A DNA stretch of 64,000 nt from Peromyscus leucopus (Eukaryota; Chordata; Mammalia; Rodentia; Cricetidae): assembly GCF_004664715.2 (NCBI RefSeq), contig NC_051063.1, forward strand, positions 141,673,819-141,737,818, given 5' to 3'. The position numbers and the translations under genes are program-made. This document shows, piece after piece, positions 23,707 to 50,210 of this stretch (positions are counted from its first letter, which is position 1; the number at the start of each line of letters is the position of its first letter). Under the pieces are notes generated by a model that did not search any database, had not been told where the DNA came from, and was given only the letters and a program-made list of their open reading frames with translations.

Positions 23707-24196
23707 TGTAGCACGAATCTTAAAAGGGCTTATTAATAAAATCAAACAGAAGCCAGGTATTGGGGTGAAGGCTGGGAGATCAGAGAAGCAGAACAAGCCA
23801 CAGCCAACCTCACCTTGCCAATTCCTCAGCTGATTCTGTTTCCTCAGACTGGAAGCTTCTGAGTCCTCATCTAAATGGATCTCAGCTGAACTGTGCTGCT
23901 CAAAGCCTAAAAGCTTAACCAGCTCTAGTTCCTGGTTTTTATGTCTTATATACCTTTCTGCTTTCTGCCAACACTTCCTGGGATTAAAGGCATGTGTCAC
24001 TATGCCTGGCTGTTTCCAGTGTAGCTTTGAGCTCACAGAGATCCGGATGGATCTCTGCCTCCCAAGTGTTAGGATTAAAGGTGTGTGTGCCACCATTTTC
24101 TGGCCTCTATGTCTATCTAGTGGCTGTTCTGTTTTCTGACCCCAGATAAGTTTATTAGGATGCACAATATATTGGGGGATACAATATATCATCACA
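23707..24196 (-). mobile_element. Solo LTR, relative of the 45-kb element's LTR, antisense
   Basis: On the minus strand it starts TGTGATGATATATTGTATCC and ends AAGATTCGTGCTACA. Order and sequence follow the LTRs of the 45,224-47,654 element: TCTGGGGTCAGAAAACAGAAC, two B1-like CCTTTAATCC blocks, a TATATAAGAC box, CAGTTCAGCTGAGATCC, TTGATTTTATTAATAAG. By eye it is clearly more diverged than the two LTRs at 45 kb are from each other. The 166-codon minus-strand frame inside it (23695-24195) is LTR sequence and not a gene. Confidence 0.85.
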
Positions 24197-44410: not shown

Positions 44411-45217
44411 AATAATGGGCCAGCAAACACAGAAAAGGTTCAAGATTTCTTCCTGAGGTGCATTCACAGATGAAGCCTTTCTTACTTATTGAGAGTTTGT
44501 TCATACTGTAATAAAACTAACCTCTGAGATTGTAGTCGATCACAGCTTAATCCGATGTTAGCTTCGAACAAATAATGGAACACAAATGGAAATTAGAAGA
44601 AACCTACCGTGGATTTAGACAGCATTTTCTTTATTTTTTTATGTACATGAAAAATGGCCTATGAGTCAAGATGCTCAATGGAGAGACAAGGGGCCACAGG
44701 TAGTGACAGAGGCACAGAATTGAAGGGGCACACATGTGACAGTCTGTCATGAGCTCTTTGGCTTCTGGAAATGTCTTAACTTTGCATATGTAAAACCTAT
44801 TTTCATGTATTATCATCCATTGGACCAGAAAGGTAACTTTAATGATAAAAATGAGATCATATTTTCAGTTTTACCAAGAATAGTAATGAATTATTGAAAT
44901 GTATCTCTTAGTAGTGGGTCCCCTTTAGTTATTATTCTTATTACTAACTAAAGCAAAATAAATGAACCCACCTGATGCTGTTTCCATTTCTTCCCACAGG
45001 ATGGTATTGGAATGTGTCAGAAAAGTATTCCCACAGATCTTTCTATTCTTGGCCCTAATGGGTCTCTTCCAGACTGGTTTTATTTCCCCAAATTCAACTA
45101 GATTGGCTTTTCTGTATAACTGTTTGGCCAGAGATCTTCCTAAGGAAACACCCCTTGGATCCTATTTTTCCACAGTTCTTCTCTTTCCTAGGCCATTTCT
45201 CTTGCTTCTTCCTACTC
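44411..45217. other. Unassigned; left flank of the young ERV
   Basis: No gene or repeat recognised. It ends in CTTCCTACTC before the target duplication. Confidence 0.5.
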
Positions 45218-45223
45218 ACCATC

Positions 45224-45772
45224 TGTGGTGGTATTGTGTTCACCAAAATATTGTGTACTCTAATAAAAATATCTGGGGTCAGAGAACAGACAGCCACTAG
45301 ATACAAAGGCTAGAAAGTGGTGGCACTCACACCTTTAATCCTAGCATTCCAGAGATAGAAATCCCTCTGGATCTCTGTGAGTTCAAGGCCACATTGGAAA
45401 CAGCCAAGCATGGTGACACGCCTTTAATCCCAGAAAGCCAGCCTTTAATCCTAGGGAGTGATGGTAGAAAGCATAAATGTATATAAGGCGTGAGGACCTA
45501 GAGGCATTTGGCTAGAAGGTTTTGGCTGGTTAAGCATTTGGCTGGTTAAGCATGTGGCTGGTTAAGCATTCAAGCTTTGAAGCAGCAGTTCAGCTGAGAG
45601 CCATTGGGATGAGGACACAGAAGCCTCCAGTCTGAGGAGACAAGACCAGCTGAGGATCTGGCGAGGTGAGATAGCTGTGGCTTGCTCTGTCTCTCTGATC
45701 TACCAGCATGGACCCCAATAACTCGCCTCGAGTTTGATTTTATTAATAACAACTTTTAAGATTCATGCTACA
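45224..45772 (+). mobile_element. 5' LTR of the young element
   Basis: TGTGGTGGTATTGTG ... AAGATTCATGCTACA. U3 contains two B1-like blocks (45335-45395: GGCACTCACACCTTTAATCC, TCTGTGAGTTCAAGGCCA; 45400-45433: GCCAAGCATGGTGACACGCC). CCTTTAATCC occurs three times. A TATA box (GTATATAAGG) is at about 45479-45488. Just downstream, a 16-bp unit (GGCTGGTTAAGCATTT-like) is repeated three times at about 45524-45569. A canonical AATAAA after the TATA box is not evident. Confidence 0.95.
45479..45488 (+). promoter_or_regulatory. Likely TATA box of the LTR promoter
   Basis: GTATATAAGG in the 5' LTR, repeated at the same place in the 3' LTR (47361-47370) and as TATATAAGAC in the related LTR at 23.7 kb. 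Its conservation between family members supports a core promoter role. Confidence 0.65.
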
Positions 45773-45774
45773 TC

Positions 45775-45786
45775 TGGCGCCCAACG
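45775..45786 (+). promoter_or_regulatory. Primer-binding site, tRNA-Lys type
   Basis: TGGCGCCCAACG two bases after the LTR end, complementary to the 3' end of a lysine tRNA. The match stops after 12 bases (TTCG follows). The sense ERV at 9827-9838 uses the same 12-mer. Confidence 0.85.
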
Positions 45787-45802
45787 TTCGTGTTGCGAAT
45801 TC

Positions 45803-45907
45803 ATGAAAAAGCTGTTTGCCTGTAGCCTTGTGAGCCCCAGCTCAGGCCCGAGCTACACTCGGCCGGTGGTGGTGGCGGTGGCAGCGCACGCCGGTAGGAT
45901 TTACTGA
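45803..45907 (+). CDS. Short upstream ORF in the element's leader
   Basis: First ATG after the primer site: 34 codons starting MKKLFACSLVSPSSG and ending before the captured region. It reads through a B1-like, GC-rich stretch (45860-45955, GGTGGTGGTGGCGGTGGCAG, then AGGCAGAGGCAGGAGGATCC). No homology recognised. If transcripts start in the LTR, this uORF would precede the TGFBR1-derived start codon. Translation is not shown. Confidence 0.25.
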   Translation: MKKLFACSLVSPSSGPSYTRPVVVAVAAHAGRIY

Positions 45908-45969
45908 AGAAGGCAGAGGCAGGAGGATCCCGAGTTTGAGGCTGGCCTAGGAGGTTTGGGAGAAGCTTT

Positions 45970-46284
45970 GGCCCGGACTGAACCACAAACAGTGGTGGGA
46001 CCATGGAAGCAGTGGCTACTGCTCCACGTTGCCAGCTCCTTCTCATCATGTTGGTGACTGCGGTGAGGCTGCTACTTGGAACAAAGGGTTTACTGCTGCT
46101 GTTTCAGAGAAGAATTGCCAGGACCATGGCGTTACAAGAAAGCAAAGGTCAGTTTGGAAAAGTTTGTCAAGACAAATGGTGGGGAGAAACTGCTGTGAAG
46201 ATTTTCTGTTCTAAGGAAGAACGTTTATGGTTCCGAGAGACAGACATTTATCAGACTATGATTGCTCCAAACCACAGAGGAGGC

Positions 46285-46315
<31 letters not shown>

Positions 46316-46338
46316 CAGGAAACCATGACCATGCCTAA
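45970..46338 (+). pseudogene. TGFBR1: Captured, internally deleted TGFBR1 mRNA, ORF still open
   Basis: The ORF at 46003-46338 (111 codons) starts in a strong context (GGGACCATGG) that, with the ~30 bases before it, resembles the TGFBR1 5'UTR. Residues 1-28 match the signal-peptide region (MEAVATAPR). Residues 29-86 match the end of the GS domain and the kinase N-lobe: [14 protein letters not shown]-loop KGQFGKV, AVKIF with the ATP-binding lysine at 66, then [14 protein letters not shown]. Residues 87-94 (IAPNHRGG) match the activation loop. A lysine run from A26 and 7 more residues follow. The extracellular, transmembrane and catalytic (HRD, DLG) parts are missing, so it cannot be an active kinase. 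LQES and IAPNHR favour TGFBR1 over its paralogue ACVR1B. By eye about two thirds of residues agree over 58 positions, and gaps are in multiples of three. Could encode a secreted or cytosolic fragment, or nothing. Confidence 0.9.
46285..46310 (+). repeat. A26 at the 3' edge of the captured sequence
   Basis: Follows GGAGGC, where the cellular gene has a short A-rich stretch in the codons after the activation-loop motif. It marks the end of TGFBR1 homology. It could be expansion of that stretch or a relic of template switching in an A-rich or polyadenylated RNA. Confidence 0.85.
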
Positions 46339-46392
46339 CAGTGACTTTGAAATCTTCAAAAAGATGACAGGATCCTACAACGATGATTCCAC

Positions 46393-46674
46393 ATGGACTA
46401 TGATAAAGCCATTAAGCCGATTAACACTGTGGAAAAATCAACTTTGGACTACAAACTGGTCAGAACAATTTCGAGAGGACTAGTTGAGATGATCCAGCCT
46501 GACAGACTACTCAAACAAGGACTTGAAACAAGCCCTGAACTTTCCTATTATGCAGAGACTGGACAAACGATACAGGACTTGATGATTAACCCCAAAATTT
46601 TCTTTTCAAGATTCCCTAAAGATATCTTCACCCCTAGAAAGCAAAAAGAAAAAGAGAATATAGATATGAGATAG
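46393..46674 (+). CDS. ORF in the element's 3' interior, function unknown
   Basis: 93 codons starting MDYDKAIKPINTVEKS, hydrophilic, no membrane segment, ending in a Lys/Glu-rich tail. I do not recognise it. Parts of the DNA (GAGATGATCCAGC..., CCAAAATTTTCTTTTC) resemble 10550-10650 in the older sense ERV, so it belongs to the ancestral internal module and not to TGFBR1. An overlapping frame (46262-46483) exists. Coding status is doubtful. Confidence 0.3.
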   Translation: MDYDKAIKPINTVEKSTLDYKLVRTISRGLVEMIQPDRLLKQGLETSPELSYYAETGQTIQDLMINPKIFFSRFPKDIFTPRKQKEKENIDMR

Positions 46675-47091
46675 ATCATCGAATCTACTCTGAGAAAAAA
46701 GATAAAGAAATAATAGGATAAATAGGTAGATCATTGAATCTACACTGAAGAAAAAGGGGAAGATATAAAAATGACAAAAGGTAGACTACTGAATGTATTA
46801 TGAAAAGAAAAAAGAGAATATGGATATGATAAGATAAAAAGGGAGATTATGGAATCTACTTTTAAAAAGGAACTACTTGTTTTAAATAAGATAAGTAATC
46901 AAAATTTTTTGGTCTGAGTTTATCAGATGTTACTGGACTGGACATTGTTAATATATATAATGGAGTTTTTTGTCTGGATCTGTCAAATGTTAATGGACTA
47001 GACATTGTTAATGTAATCTTGACTGTATATTGCATATACTTATTGAAGATAGTTTTTCTTGTATTAGTTATAAGCTTTTTTAATTTTAGAC

Positions 47092-47105
47092 AAAAAGAGA
47101 GGAGA
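47092..47105 (+). promoter_or_regulatory. Polypurine tract of the young element
   Basis: AAAAAGAGAGGAGA directly before the 3' LTR, as needed for plus-strand priming. Confidence 0.9.
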
Positions 47106-47654
47106 TGTGGTGGTATTGTGTTCACCAAAATATTGTGTACTCTAATAAAAATATCTGGGGTCAGAGAACAGACAGCCACTAGATACAAAGGCTAGAAAGT
47201 GGTGGCACTCACACCTTTAATCCTAGCATTCCAGAGATAGAAATCCCTCTGGATCTCTGTGAGTTCAAGGCCACATTGGAAACAGCCAAGCATGGTGACA
47301 CGCCTTTAATCCCAGAAAGCCAGCCTTTAATCCTAGGGAGTGATGGTAGAAAGCATAAATGTATATAAGGCGTGAGGACCTAGAGGCATTTGGCTAGAAG
47401 GTTTTGGCTGGTTAAGCATTTGGCTGGTTAAGCATGTGGCTGGTTAAGCATTCAAGCTTTGAAGCAGCAGTTCAGCTGAGAGCCATTGGGATGAGGACAC
47501 AGAAGCCTCCAGTCTGAGGAGACAAGACCAGCTGAGGATCTGGTGAGGTGAGATAGCTGTGGCTTGCTCTGTCTCTCTGATCTACCAGCATGGACCCCAA
47601 TAACTCGCCTCGAGTTTGATTTTATTAATAACAACTTTTAAGATTCATGCTACA
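47106..47654 (+). mobile_element. 3' LTR of the young element
   Basis: 549 bp, the same as the 5' LTR except T at 47544. Followed at once by ACCATC and unique sequence. Confidence 0.95.
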
Positions 47655-47660
47655 ACCATC

Positions 47661-50210
47661 CGCTTCCTTCATAGGGGTTAGTTGCTTCTTCAATTCACAT
47701 TGTCCTTGTAGTACATTTTTAAAAGTATATGTGTCAGACAATGTTATAGACCCTGGGTAAAGCCACAAACAATATCAGCAAAGTCTACCCAGCCTTTCCT
47801 AGTGCAGTGAGATGGATTATTATATACCAACAACTGCAGGTGTAGATTATAAAGGGGACTGGGAAGAAAAGGGGAGAAGTAAGAGAAGATGAAAGATTGC
47901 TGTTTACATTGGTAAACCAGATCTACAAAGGTGGCATTGGATTTAAATGAAGCAAGCGACACTGAGAGAACATCTGCCACCTGGGAACAACCTTGGATCT
48001 CCAGAAACTTAGACTAGACTAGACTGCATTGATGGAGAAATGGACAGTATTTGGTTATAATGGTTTTTTGAACACCACACCATAGCAGTTTGCTCATGCC
48101 TGACCCTTAAGGCTCCTGCCATTAACACCCTCTATAGGTATCCTGATGGGTCCACAATGAAGTGATTCCCTTTCTGTCTTCCCATTATACTTTCATATCA
48201 CGAATCATGAACCATACCCCAATTATTATTGTTCATGAACCATGGTCCCATTATTATGTTTGTCTCTCTGAATTATAAGATTTTATTCATCTTCCTATGC
48301 CTGGGTTCTAGTGTACACCATTGGTGTTAGTAATGGTTGGGCTATTGTTAAATAAGTGATGAGATGAATATATGACTAAGCAAATGAATAAGTAAACAAA
48401 CCAATGCATTTGATAGCAATGGCTCTACCTGGTAGAAAACAGGGAAAAATAAAATATTCATTCTTTTTTTAACTAAATATTTTCTAAGTATTCTAAATTA
48501 ATAGAATTTTATGTTCCTGATATATTATTTATTAATGTTTCTTCAATTATAAAATGGTTAGGATGATTAAACTATATTTACATGATATAAATAAGTTACA
48601 TGTAAATAAATATATGATATGTAAACAACAATATGTGTCTGTCTATATGTCAGCTGCACATTCTTTTGCTTTCCTGAGTTTAGAGGCACAGTATCATGGA
48701 GGTATGAGAAGGAAACAAGAAACCAGCATAAAAAAATGACTCTCTCCTGAGAAGCAGGTAACACAGAAGAAGAACTGCCCATCAGGGAGGCTAGGTGTGG
48801 TGGTAGCTGGGATTGTTATGGTGGATATAGTAAGCAATGGCGAGGAAGGTGAGAGTCAAAGGTGGACAGTTTGGATTAGCCTGGTTAAGGATAAAAGAAT
48901 GAGATGCTATCTACAAACTCACATGCTGAAGATCAGAGATCCCAGTGAGTCACTACTGACTCTGAACTTAGAAACCCTGTAGTAATCTTCCTTTAAATGT
49001 TGCATGCTCTATCATTCAGGCCTAGGAACCATGGTTTTTCAAATATTTCACATAAATTATGATTAAAAAAAAACCATAAAAAATCCACTTAGTTTAGCTT
49101 GGAGCCAGGCAAACGGTGTTTACCAAAGGGTTAGCTCTTGTTAGTTTCTCTTGTAGTATTGAGGAGATAAGCACATTCATAAACATCATTTCATTTTTGA
49201 ACTCAGCTTGTAAAGTAAGGAATGTAAATCTTGTCCTGCCCACTCAACTGCTAAGAAAGTATTCTCAAAAGCACTGAACATTTGCCCAATATTGCCTGTA
49301 ATCCAAATGACAGTCAAATTTACTTGAGTGTAAGTTCAGAGTGTTAGAACCTTTAGATTACTAGGTGTTAAATTAAATTTTAATGTTGAGATCATTATAG
49401 ATTAATATGTAAATGTAAGACTATTAAATAGTCCTTTACTCAGTTTCTCCCAGTGCTATATCTTACAAAATGCATAGTATATCCATTATTGACCTTTATA
49501 GAGTCAACAGAAGAAATACATTTTTCTGTAATATATCCATAGGGCCCTTCCCACTGCCCTCTGTTGGCCATACTTCCTTCCTTTTTAATTCTTCATGCTC
49601 TCAATCTTCATACTGTTATTGTCTCAATATTGTTGAATAAACGGATCCCTGTAACATGGAACATTGTAAAGCTAGCATCTGCTATTTTCCTAACTCCAGG
49701 GTCCTTCATGCAGGTGGACTGTTGTAATTGGTACATGTGTATTTGGTCTTTAGGTTTTTTGTTTGTTTGTTTTTTTAATTATCAGTGATGTGCTTTGGTA
49801 TGGATTTCTTTGAATTCATCCATTAAATTCACTCTATGCTATAAACGCAATATACATATTTTGTCAAATTTAGAAAAAAACCACCCATCACTTATTAGGG
49901 AACCTTTCCAAGCCCTTACCCTTCTTTCCCAGTAGGACTTTGATAATGCAAATATCAGGTCTTATGTTAAAGTCAGAGGGCCTTGAAATTCTGTCCATTT
50001 CTTTTCAGATGACTTTCTGAAAGAACTATCTGCACTTTCTACAGATCAGCAGTTCTTGTGTCTTCCAGTTCAACAGTATTTCTCTGTCTCTTCCATTCTG
50101 ATGCAGAGGCCAAACACTGCTTTTATGCCAATTGTTTCAGTTCAAACATTTTCCAACTGGCTTATCATTGTATTTTTTTGGGGGGGGGGTTAGGAAAAAA
50201 ATTTCCCATT
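47661..50210. other. Mostly unassigned
   Basis: No gene. A degraded B1-like trace (GGCTAGGTGTGGTGGTAGCT, 48789-48925, +) is possible. T-rich and G-rich short runs occur near 49755 and 50180. Confidence 0.45.

Follow-up and report, generated by a model that had tools for sequence, protein, structure and literature searches.

The window analysed here is a stretch of 64,000 nucleotides from the genome of Peromyscus leucopus, hereafter the source species. An LTR element in this window carries a 111-codon ORF, in sense orientation, that resembles the type I TGF-beta receptor TGFBR1. How did part of a host receptor gene come to stand between two LTRs, and does it still serve a purpose there? The original prediction, made from the letters of the window, was that an LTR element had captured a TGFBR1 mRNA fragment and lost the catalytic part, perhaps leaving a decoy-like product.

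The ORF lies in a young LTR element

The element occupies window positions 45224-47654 and is framed by a pair of LTRs and a 6-bp target duplication. Its features are listed in Table 1. Self-comparison of the window showed that the LTRs, 549 bp each, are 99.8% identical, with one mismatch. Both begin with TG and end with CA, and ACCATC is repeated on the two flanks. Paired LTRs with these ends and a 6-bp duplication are those of a class II (ERVK-type) LTR element. As predicted, the ORF is found in sense between the LTRs.

The distance between the LTRs is 1,333 bp. In order, a primer-site-like TGGCGCCCAACG and a leader are followed by the part resembling TGFBR1, an A-run, a region of 794 bp and a purine-rich tract. 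The TGGCGCCCAACG motif, which may be of the lysine tRNA primer-binding-site type, agrees with such a site over only ~12 nt behind the LTR and then diverges. The leader includes a B1-SINE-like piece. No gag-pro-pol was detected by Pfam in three window ORFs tried, within an inter-LTR space of this size. Hence, the element is called non-autonomous. The ORFs at 46003-46335 and 46393-46671 had no Pfam match at E 1, and those at 46262-46480 and 46393-46671 had none at E 10. For ORFs of the 3' region there was no credible match to a solved structure, and Rfam returned 0 matches at E 1 over positions 44500-48500.

The 5' LTR includes a stretch similar to repeats elsewhere in the window. Each LTR contains 16-bp tandem repeats of the AAGCATTTGGCTGGTT type (45516-45585 and 47398-47467). 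The length of the LTR varies among copies of the element, and repeat number is perhaps the cause. An older second LTR of the same broad family is on the minus strand at 23707-24186 and is 73% identical to the LTRs of the element; self-comparison of the window gave no further match of that length.

Table 1. Features of the element in the window, and TGFBR1 exons of the same genome (contig C2).
Feature	Position	Strand	Basis
5' target-site duplication ACCATC	45218-45223		sequence read
5' LTR, TG...CA, 549 bp	45224-45772	+	self-comparison
Primer-binding-site-like TGGCGCCCAACG, directly behind 5' LTR	45775-45786	+	assumed motif, ~12 nt agree
Leader with B1-SINE-like piece, up to 5' fusion point	45862-45950	+	assumed consensus; longer-copy comparison
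End of TGFBR1 5'UTR, with exon 1 (region of the signal peptide); diverged	45951-46087	+	host-gene alignment, longer copies
TGFBR1 exon 4, first part (GS-domain end, P-loop, catalytic lysine)	46088-46262	+	host-gene alignment
TGFBR1 exon 6, 3' end (activation loop IAPNHR)	46261-46311	+	host-gene and longer-copy alignment
111-codon ORF across TGFBR1-derived part	46003-46338	+	ORF list, structure match
ERV 3' region, common with TGFBR1-free relative	46312-47105	+	alignment to relatives
Polypurine tract	about 47092-47105	+	sequence read
3' LTR, one mismatch to 5' LTR	47106-47654	+	self-comparison
3' target-site duplication ACCATC	47655-47660		sequence read
Host TGFBR1 exon 1 CDS, 97 nt	C2:58433660-58433756		
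Host TGFBR1 exon 4	C2:58477607-58477837		
Host TGFBR1 exon 5	C2:58483342-58483509		
Host TGFBR1 exon 6	C2:58483908-58484064		

The interior of the element matches a spliced TGFBR1 mRNA

Among solved structures, the ORF matched TGF-beta receptor type 1 chains best (residues 28-88; E 3.6e-18). BMPR1B (E 2.3e-12) and ACVR1 (E 7.9e-12) ranked lower and, at E 0.001, only type I TGF-beta-family receptors were matched. Another short segment, IAPNHR, can be aligned with the activation loop; it is insignificant by itself.

The genome searched for the parent gene comprises 2.475 Gb. A Pfam search with PF01064 gave 5 matches: one (L045) is TGFBR1, with exon 2 at C2:58466222; the remaining four appear to be other genes. 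A GS-domain Pfam search of the genome gave 4 loci, none of which matched the element interior. Exons 1, 4 and 6 were found in ten stretches neighbouring exon 2, and exon 5 through the longer copies described below. Alignment to the gene was significant for each part. Window positions 45959-46063 match the host 5'UTR and exon 1 (72% DNA identity, E 1.9e-11), positions 46087-46262 match exon 4 (81%, E 1.2e-45) and positions 46261-46291 match exon 6 (90%, E 1.8e-5). The matches have the same order and orientation as in TGFBR1.

The window join at 46087/46088 is the exact boundary between exon 1 and exon 4. With joints marked by a slash, host exon 1 ends ..GGACGGAGG/gtgagc, exon 4 starts tgtag/GTTTACC and the window reads ..AACAAAGG/GTTTACT. 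Skipping of exons 2 and 3 leaves the reading frame intact, the exon 1 CDS being 97 nt. By its sequence, the join results from splicing that skipped exons 2 and 3. A captured host mRNA is marked by joins between exons of a known parent gene, free of introns and placed between LTRs. Hence, the core of the original prediction is upheld by the parent gene, the exact splice boundary and the frame of LTRs and target duplication.

The join between exons 4 and 6 lies inside both exons, at ~2 nt that they have in common (microhomology), and therefore represents a deletion, not a splice. The terminal TAAAAG of exon 6 has been expanded to an A-run (46285-46310) in the window copy. The TGFBR1-derived core of the element is 45951-46311. 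The span first assigned to TGFBR1 was 45970-46338; comparison with the longer copies places the start of the TGFBR1 part near 45951, and the end of the ORF, from about 46285, is A-run plus element sequence. Similarly, the predicted P-loop is in the exon 4 part, but this copy is without two P-loop residues held by 35 of 40 copies.

A longer form has exons 1, 4, 5 and 6

With host exon 4 as the query, 40 places were scored from 1,419 candidates; they are the gene itself and 39 others. This number, like the 1,909 and 3,528 given below, counts loose candidates and not confirmed copies. The 39 places are 89-95% identical to the query, and every match extends to at least base 229 of 232, past the deletion point of the window copy. 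Eight were examined, six of them in stretches of only 1.6 kb. All eight contain the leader, the 5'UTR/exon 1 match, exon 4 and the beginning of exon 5, the 5'UTR/exon 1 match being short in L067 (38 bases) and L066 (73-78 bases). Exon 6 and then the ERV 3' region follow in seven. L065 has only the first 20 bases of exon 5, and part of this exon is missing from L066. The join of exons 4 and 5 is exact in L060 and L061, and that of exons 5 and 6 in L061; L060 is altered just behind the latter. None of the eight copies matched host exon 2. LTR matches were seen in six of the eight (none in L060 or L062), and on both sides only in L061, in stretches that are mostly 1.6 kb long. A second internal deletion was observed at L065:774-1042, where the sequence leaves exon 5 near its start and resumes midway in the ERV 3' region.

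The longer copies diverge from host exons 4-6 by 0.069-0.106 (mean 0.082). They hold 30 gap runs relative to the host, 27 of which are not multiples of three and 3 of which are. Because of this divergence, the decay by gaps and the fuller set of exons, we take the longer form to be the older and decayed one, and the short form of the window to be a later internal deletion. The prediction that the catalytic part was lost holds for the window. However, the catalytic-loop exon is present in the longer copies, and so would have been deleted after capture.

Copies of the short form and their relatives in Scotinomys

A DNA search with window positions 45960-46370 scored 40 places, one of them the window's own, out of 1,909 loose candidates. 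Identity is 88-100% at each of the 40, and the match covers 391 or more of the 411 query bases. Of the 40 copies read, 38 have an open frame across the TGFBR1 part; L020 and L024 are broken by stops. Within the stretches examined, an LTR pair was seen at 32 of the 40 loci, and none at L016, L018, L020, L024, L026, L032, L033 and L036. The median LTR divergence among the 32 copies is 0.0036, and the LTRs are identical in eight. Values range from 0 to 0.036; another computation gave slightly different values, with 0.046 for L031 as the highest. A perfect 6-bp duplication beside TG...CA was found in 24 of the 32 copies, two of these duplications being simple repeats (L023 and L031). At an assumed rate of 5e-9 substitutions per site per year, the median LTR age would be about 0.4 million years. 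Identical LTRs could in part be assembly artefacts. The LTRs of L006-L034 are 83-93% identical to the window LTR, and their TGFBR1 parts 93-98%. The lower agreement of the LTRs may point to their exchange or rapid evolution.

A protein search with the ORF gave 34 matches, all of them predicted proteins of Scotinomys teguina, 58-72% identical. Of the 34, 23 were aligned with the ORF and show the same joints; 16 of these 23 are without nine residues, in frame. Most aligned proteins begin further upstream, in the former 5'UTR. For three of the proteins, all Pfam matches fell short of the cut-offs; they were to kinase families (E 0.008-0.02) and, once, to a lipocalin (0.043). Because the Scotinomys proteins have the same joints, the capture appears to be older than the split between Scotinomys and the source species, unless the element crossed between them. 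The 34 entries, listed as STEG23_* "hypothetical protein", resemble pieces of the TGFBR1 retroelement and are probably an annotation artefact.

TGFBR1 sequence stands where relatives carry other sequence

The 5' fusion, CCTGG/GAGGCTTG or a near variant, is found in all eight longer copies. Its TGFBR1 side starts near what we take to be the start of the human mRNA. At the other end, host exon 6 reads CACTAAAAG/gtacac, with the edge placed according to GT and frame. The 3' fusion in L067 is CACTAAAAG/TTTTCTTCAG, where the element side begins TTTTC, and L062 and L063 read CACTAAAAATTTTCTGCAG. In the other four of the seven copies that have exon 6, A- or CA-rich stretches obscure the joint. The 3' joint is at the end of exon 6, but within AAG or AG common to exon 6 and the ERV.

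L059 is a relative free of TGFBR1 sequence, and its homology to the 3' region of the element starts at window position 46312. L059, the one relative tested, yielded pieces of gag p24 and integrase, both degenerate, together with a weak match to RNase H. A junction query was made of 70 bases upstream and 251 bases downstream of the 3' junction point. All 40 scored matches (own place included; 3,528 candidates) cross this point, starting at query base 18 or before. At the junction L069 and L070 read TTTAAG/TTTTCTACAG, L071 reads CTAAG/TTTTCTGCC and L068, which is the same place as L059, reads TTGGAG/TCTTCTGCAG. TGFBR1 exons 4-6 are absent from L068, L069, L070 and L071, the four relatives compared. 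Relatives of the element without host sequence are expected where a host mRNA has been captured. Since these relatives cross the junction without exons 4-6, TGFBR1 mRNA stands where they carry other sequence. Judging by L059 alone, the sequence replaced would have included gag-pol.

In the present TGFBR1 stretches no sense-oriented ERV of this family was found; two relatives there are antisense. They lie behind and inside the gene, at L059:1905-8676 (C2:58517005-58523776) and L056 (C2:58487811-58488215).

Taken together, these comparisons identify the element as one young copy of a non-autonomous LTR family, the body of which is a spliced, partial TGFBR1 mRNA. By the same comparisons, the leader and the 3' region fused to this body are those of a class-II-type ERV.

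A single capture probably founded the family

We think it likely that the family goes back to one capture of a TGFBR1 transcript, lacking exons 2 and 3, into a class-II-type ERV that then spread in trans. The founding event would have occurred in an ancestor of the source species and Scotinomys. There, the 3' end of exon 6 would have been joined to ERV RNA. We lean towards splicing into a sense ERV, in or behind the gene, because a joint at the exon end would otherwise be a coincidence. The alternative for this joint is a template switch at the shared (A)AG. Several points count against splicing. The ERV acceptor would be weak, and there is a better-looking AG about 10 nt downstream. Exon 6 and the ERV have the AAG or AG in common, and a simple template switch would therefore explain the joint equally. 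The joint is also blurred in four of the seven copies with exon 6, and the present TGFBR1 stretches yielded only antisense relatives. Reverse transcriptase may then have reached the capped 5' end of the chimeric RNA and been forced to jump to a co-packaged ERV leader, restoring the primer site and 5' LTR. The captured part would have replaced the upstream part of the ERV. The product, without gag-pol, would have been moved in trans by pol-bearing relatives.

The usual model of LTR-mediated retroposition would instead have two independent template switches, between TGFBR1 mRNA and ERV RNA co-packaged in one particle, with no chimeric spliced transcript. The 2-3 nt in common at the 3' joint (host CACTAAAAG; relatives TTTAAG, CTAAG and TTGGAG) are consistent with such a route, as is the deletion between exons 4 and 6, likewise at ~2 nt of microhomology. 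Switching guided by microsimilarity is described in a review (PMC5408686). Conversely, the 3' joint is exactly at the exon end in L067, the clearest copy, and the 5' joint is near the presumed mRNA start. One forced switch and a splice would therefore need fewer coincidences. Hence, two switches are a real possibility, but a less probable one than a chimeric transcript.

The captured ORF is predicted to be a passenger

Selection could have kept the frame of the short form if its ORF were a working TGFBR1 fragment, secreted or targeted to the membrane, that benefited the element or altered TGF-beta signalling. The open frame in 38 of 40 copies would fit, as would the 34 predicted Scotinomys proteins with the same joints in 23 aligned. 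Gaps between window and host are all in frame (3, 9, 6 and 3 nt), as against 3 multiples of three among the 30 gaps of the old longer copies, and the only indel among the 40 short copies is 6 nt. However, these copies are young and were chosen by similarity, and the Scotinomys set was chosen for open frames. Furthermore, the 3- and 9-nt gaps sit in triplet repeats, which commonly slip in steps of three, and 5 of the 40 copies have lost part of the P-loop. In neutral simulations the probability of an open frame was 0.01-0.44, depending on the assumed divergence and indel rate. The observed retention is somewhat above this simulation, a signal weakened by the triplet repeats at indel sites and by the selection of similar, young copies.

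Between the host and the 38 open copies, dS is 0.27, dN is 0.14 and pN/pS is 0.56; among the copies, pN/pS is 1.14. Nonsynonymous and synonymous variants number 28 and 7 when private, 7 and 2 when in two copies, and 16 and 3 when in three or more; 20 and 13 differences are fixed against the host. The neutral expectation is a ratio of 2.7. The private and the three-or-more classes are at or above it, which argues against a working ORF. The host-copy dN/dS is as would be expected if only the host gene were constrained, and so fits a neutral branch beside it. A lower share of nonsynonymous changes in the fixed class than in the variable classes would fit past constraint, but this class includes the silent changes of the host too. 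Amino-acid constraint on the captured ORF was not detected in these copies, which are biased to young ones.

We therefore consider a working fragment improbable, and the ORF is very likely a passenger. The TGFBR1 part would now be neutral stuffer; translation of the short ORF is possible, without sign of amino-acid constraint. The suggestion of a decoy-like fragment is unsupported, and the amino-acid changes look neutral. We are similarly doubtful of a combined proposal, in which a chimeric TGFBR1-ERV transcript founded the family and the short form still makes a signal-peptide/GS/kinase-lobe fragment, with its frame kept because this helps the element or dampens TGF-beta signalling in germ line or embryo.

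The A-run behind the TGFBR1 part might recall a LINE-1 processed pseudogene of TGFBR1 inserted in an LTR element. However, the run is at the TAAAAG of exon 6 itself; in L067, L062 and L063 it is missing or spans just 5 A. The TGFBR1 piece ends in coding sequence (exon 6) rather than at a polyadenylated mRNA 3' end, and the duplication that was detected flanks the LTRs on their outer sides. All eight longer copies have a similar 5' edge, and seven of them reach the end of exon 6. Finally, the sequence of the relatives differs upstream of the joint, so the ERV was not merely interrupted. Insertion by LINE-1 is thus very improbable. Chance or remote kinase similarity is ruled out by the exact host exon joins and a DNA match at E 1e-45.

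Comparison with known systems

Acutely transforming retroviruses have transduced spliced growth-signalling genes, have lost viral genes and need a helper. The TGFBR1 element resembles them in that a spliced growth-signalling gene is fused to retroviral ends. Unlike them, it is in the germ line and its kinase is truncated, and no transforming function is suggested.

In the open-licence literature, covered mostly at the level of titles and abstracts, we found neither TGFBR1 reported in an element of this kind nor any captured host mRNA described as having expanded into a repeated family in mammals. Neither TGF nor LTR is mentioned in the main text of a singing-mouse genome paper (PMC10521431). 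Among the consequences of many receptor-gene pieces in a rodent genome are those for RNA-seq mapping and gene annotation, and possible sense or antisense effects.

Crocodilian ERVs with captured KIT-ligand and nectin3 mRNAs have been described (PMC4299795). As here, a host mRNA is in an ERV with several insertions, and the nectin3 capture is older than a species split. In that account the nectin3 ORF is in place of env, and KIT-ligand was added without loss of ERV domains. The crocodilian ORFs are reported to be under purifying selection, whereas the changes in the TGFBR1 element look neutral. The TGFBR1 element also differs in that no gag-pol was found in it, the mRNA is partial and exon-skipped, there are at least 40 copies, and the host is a mammal (compare PMC4299795).

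The deer mouse has prolific non-autonomous ERVK subfamilies related to mysTR (PMC10089650). They keep the region from pol to the 3' LTR, and replacement has been suggested for their non-homologous interior (PMC10089650). The likeness to the TGFBR1 element is by layout only: both are short, have no coding genes and share the pol-to-3' LTR region with pol-bearing relatives. The source of the interior is not given for the deer-mouse subfamilies, and the paper leaves open the origin of foreign interiors in high-copy non-autonomous ERVs (PMC10089650); in the TGFBR1 element the interior is TGFBR1 mRNA. The donor gene, both fusion points, TGFBR1-free relatives of the 3' region, and longer and short forms are all in one genome. 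Hence, the successive steps in the birth of the family can be followed.

LTR-mediated retroposition by template switching, including maize Bs1, has been reviewed (PMC5408686). Such retrocopies and the TGFBR1 element alike have a cellular mRNA built into an LTR element. According to the review, retrocopies linked to LINE1 are dominant in mammals (PMC5408686). Here, in contrast, one LTR-borne retrocopy became a repeated family, which illustrates one way in which mammalian genomes breed new mobile elements.
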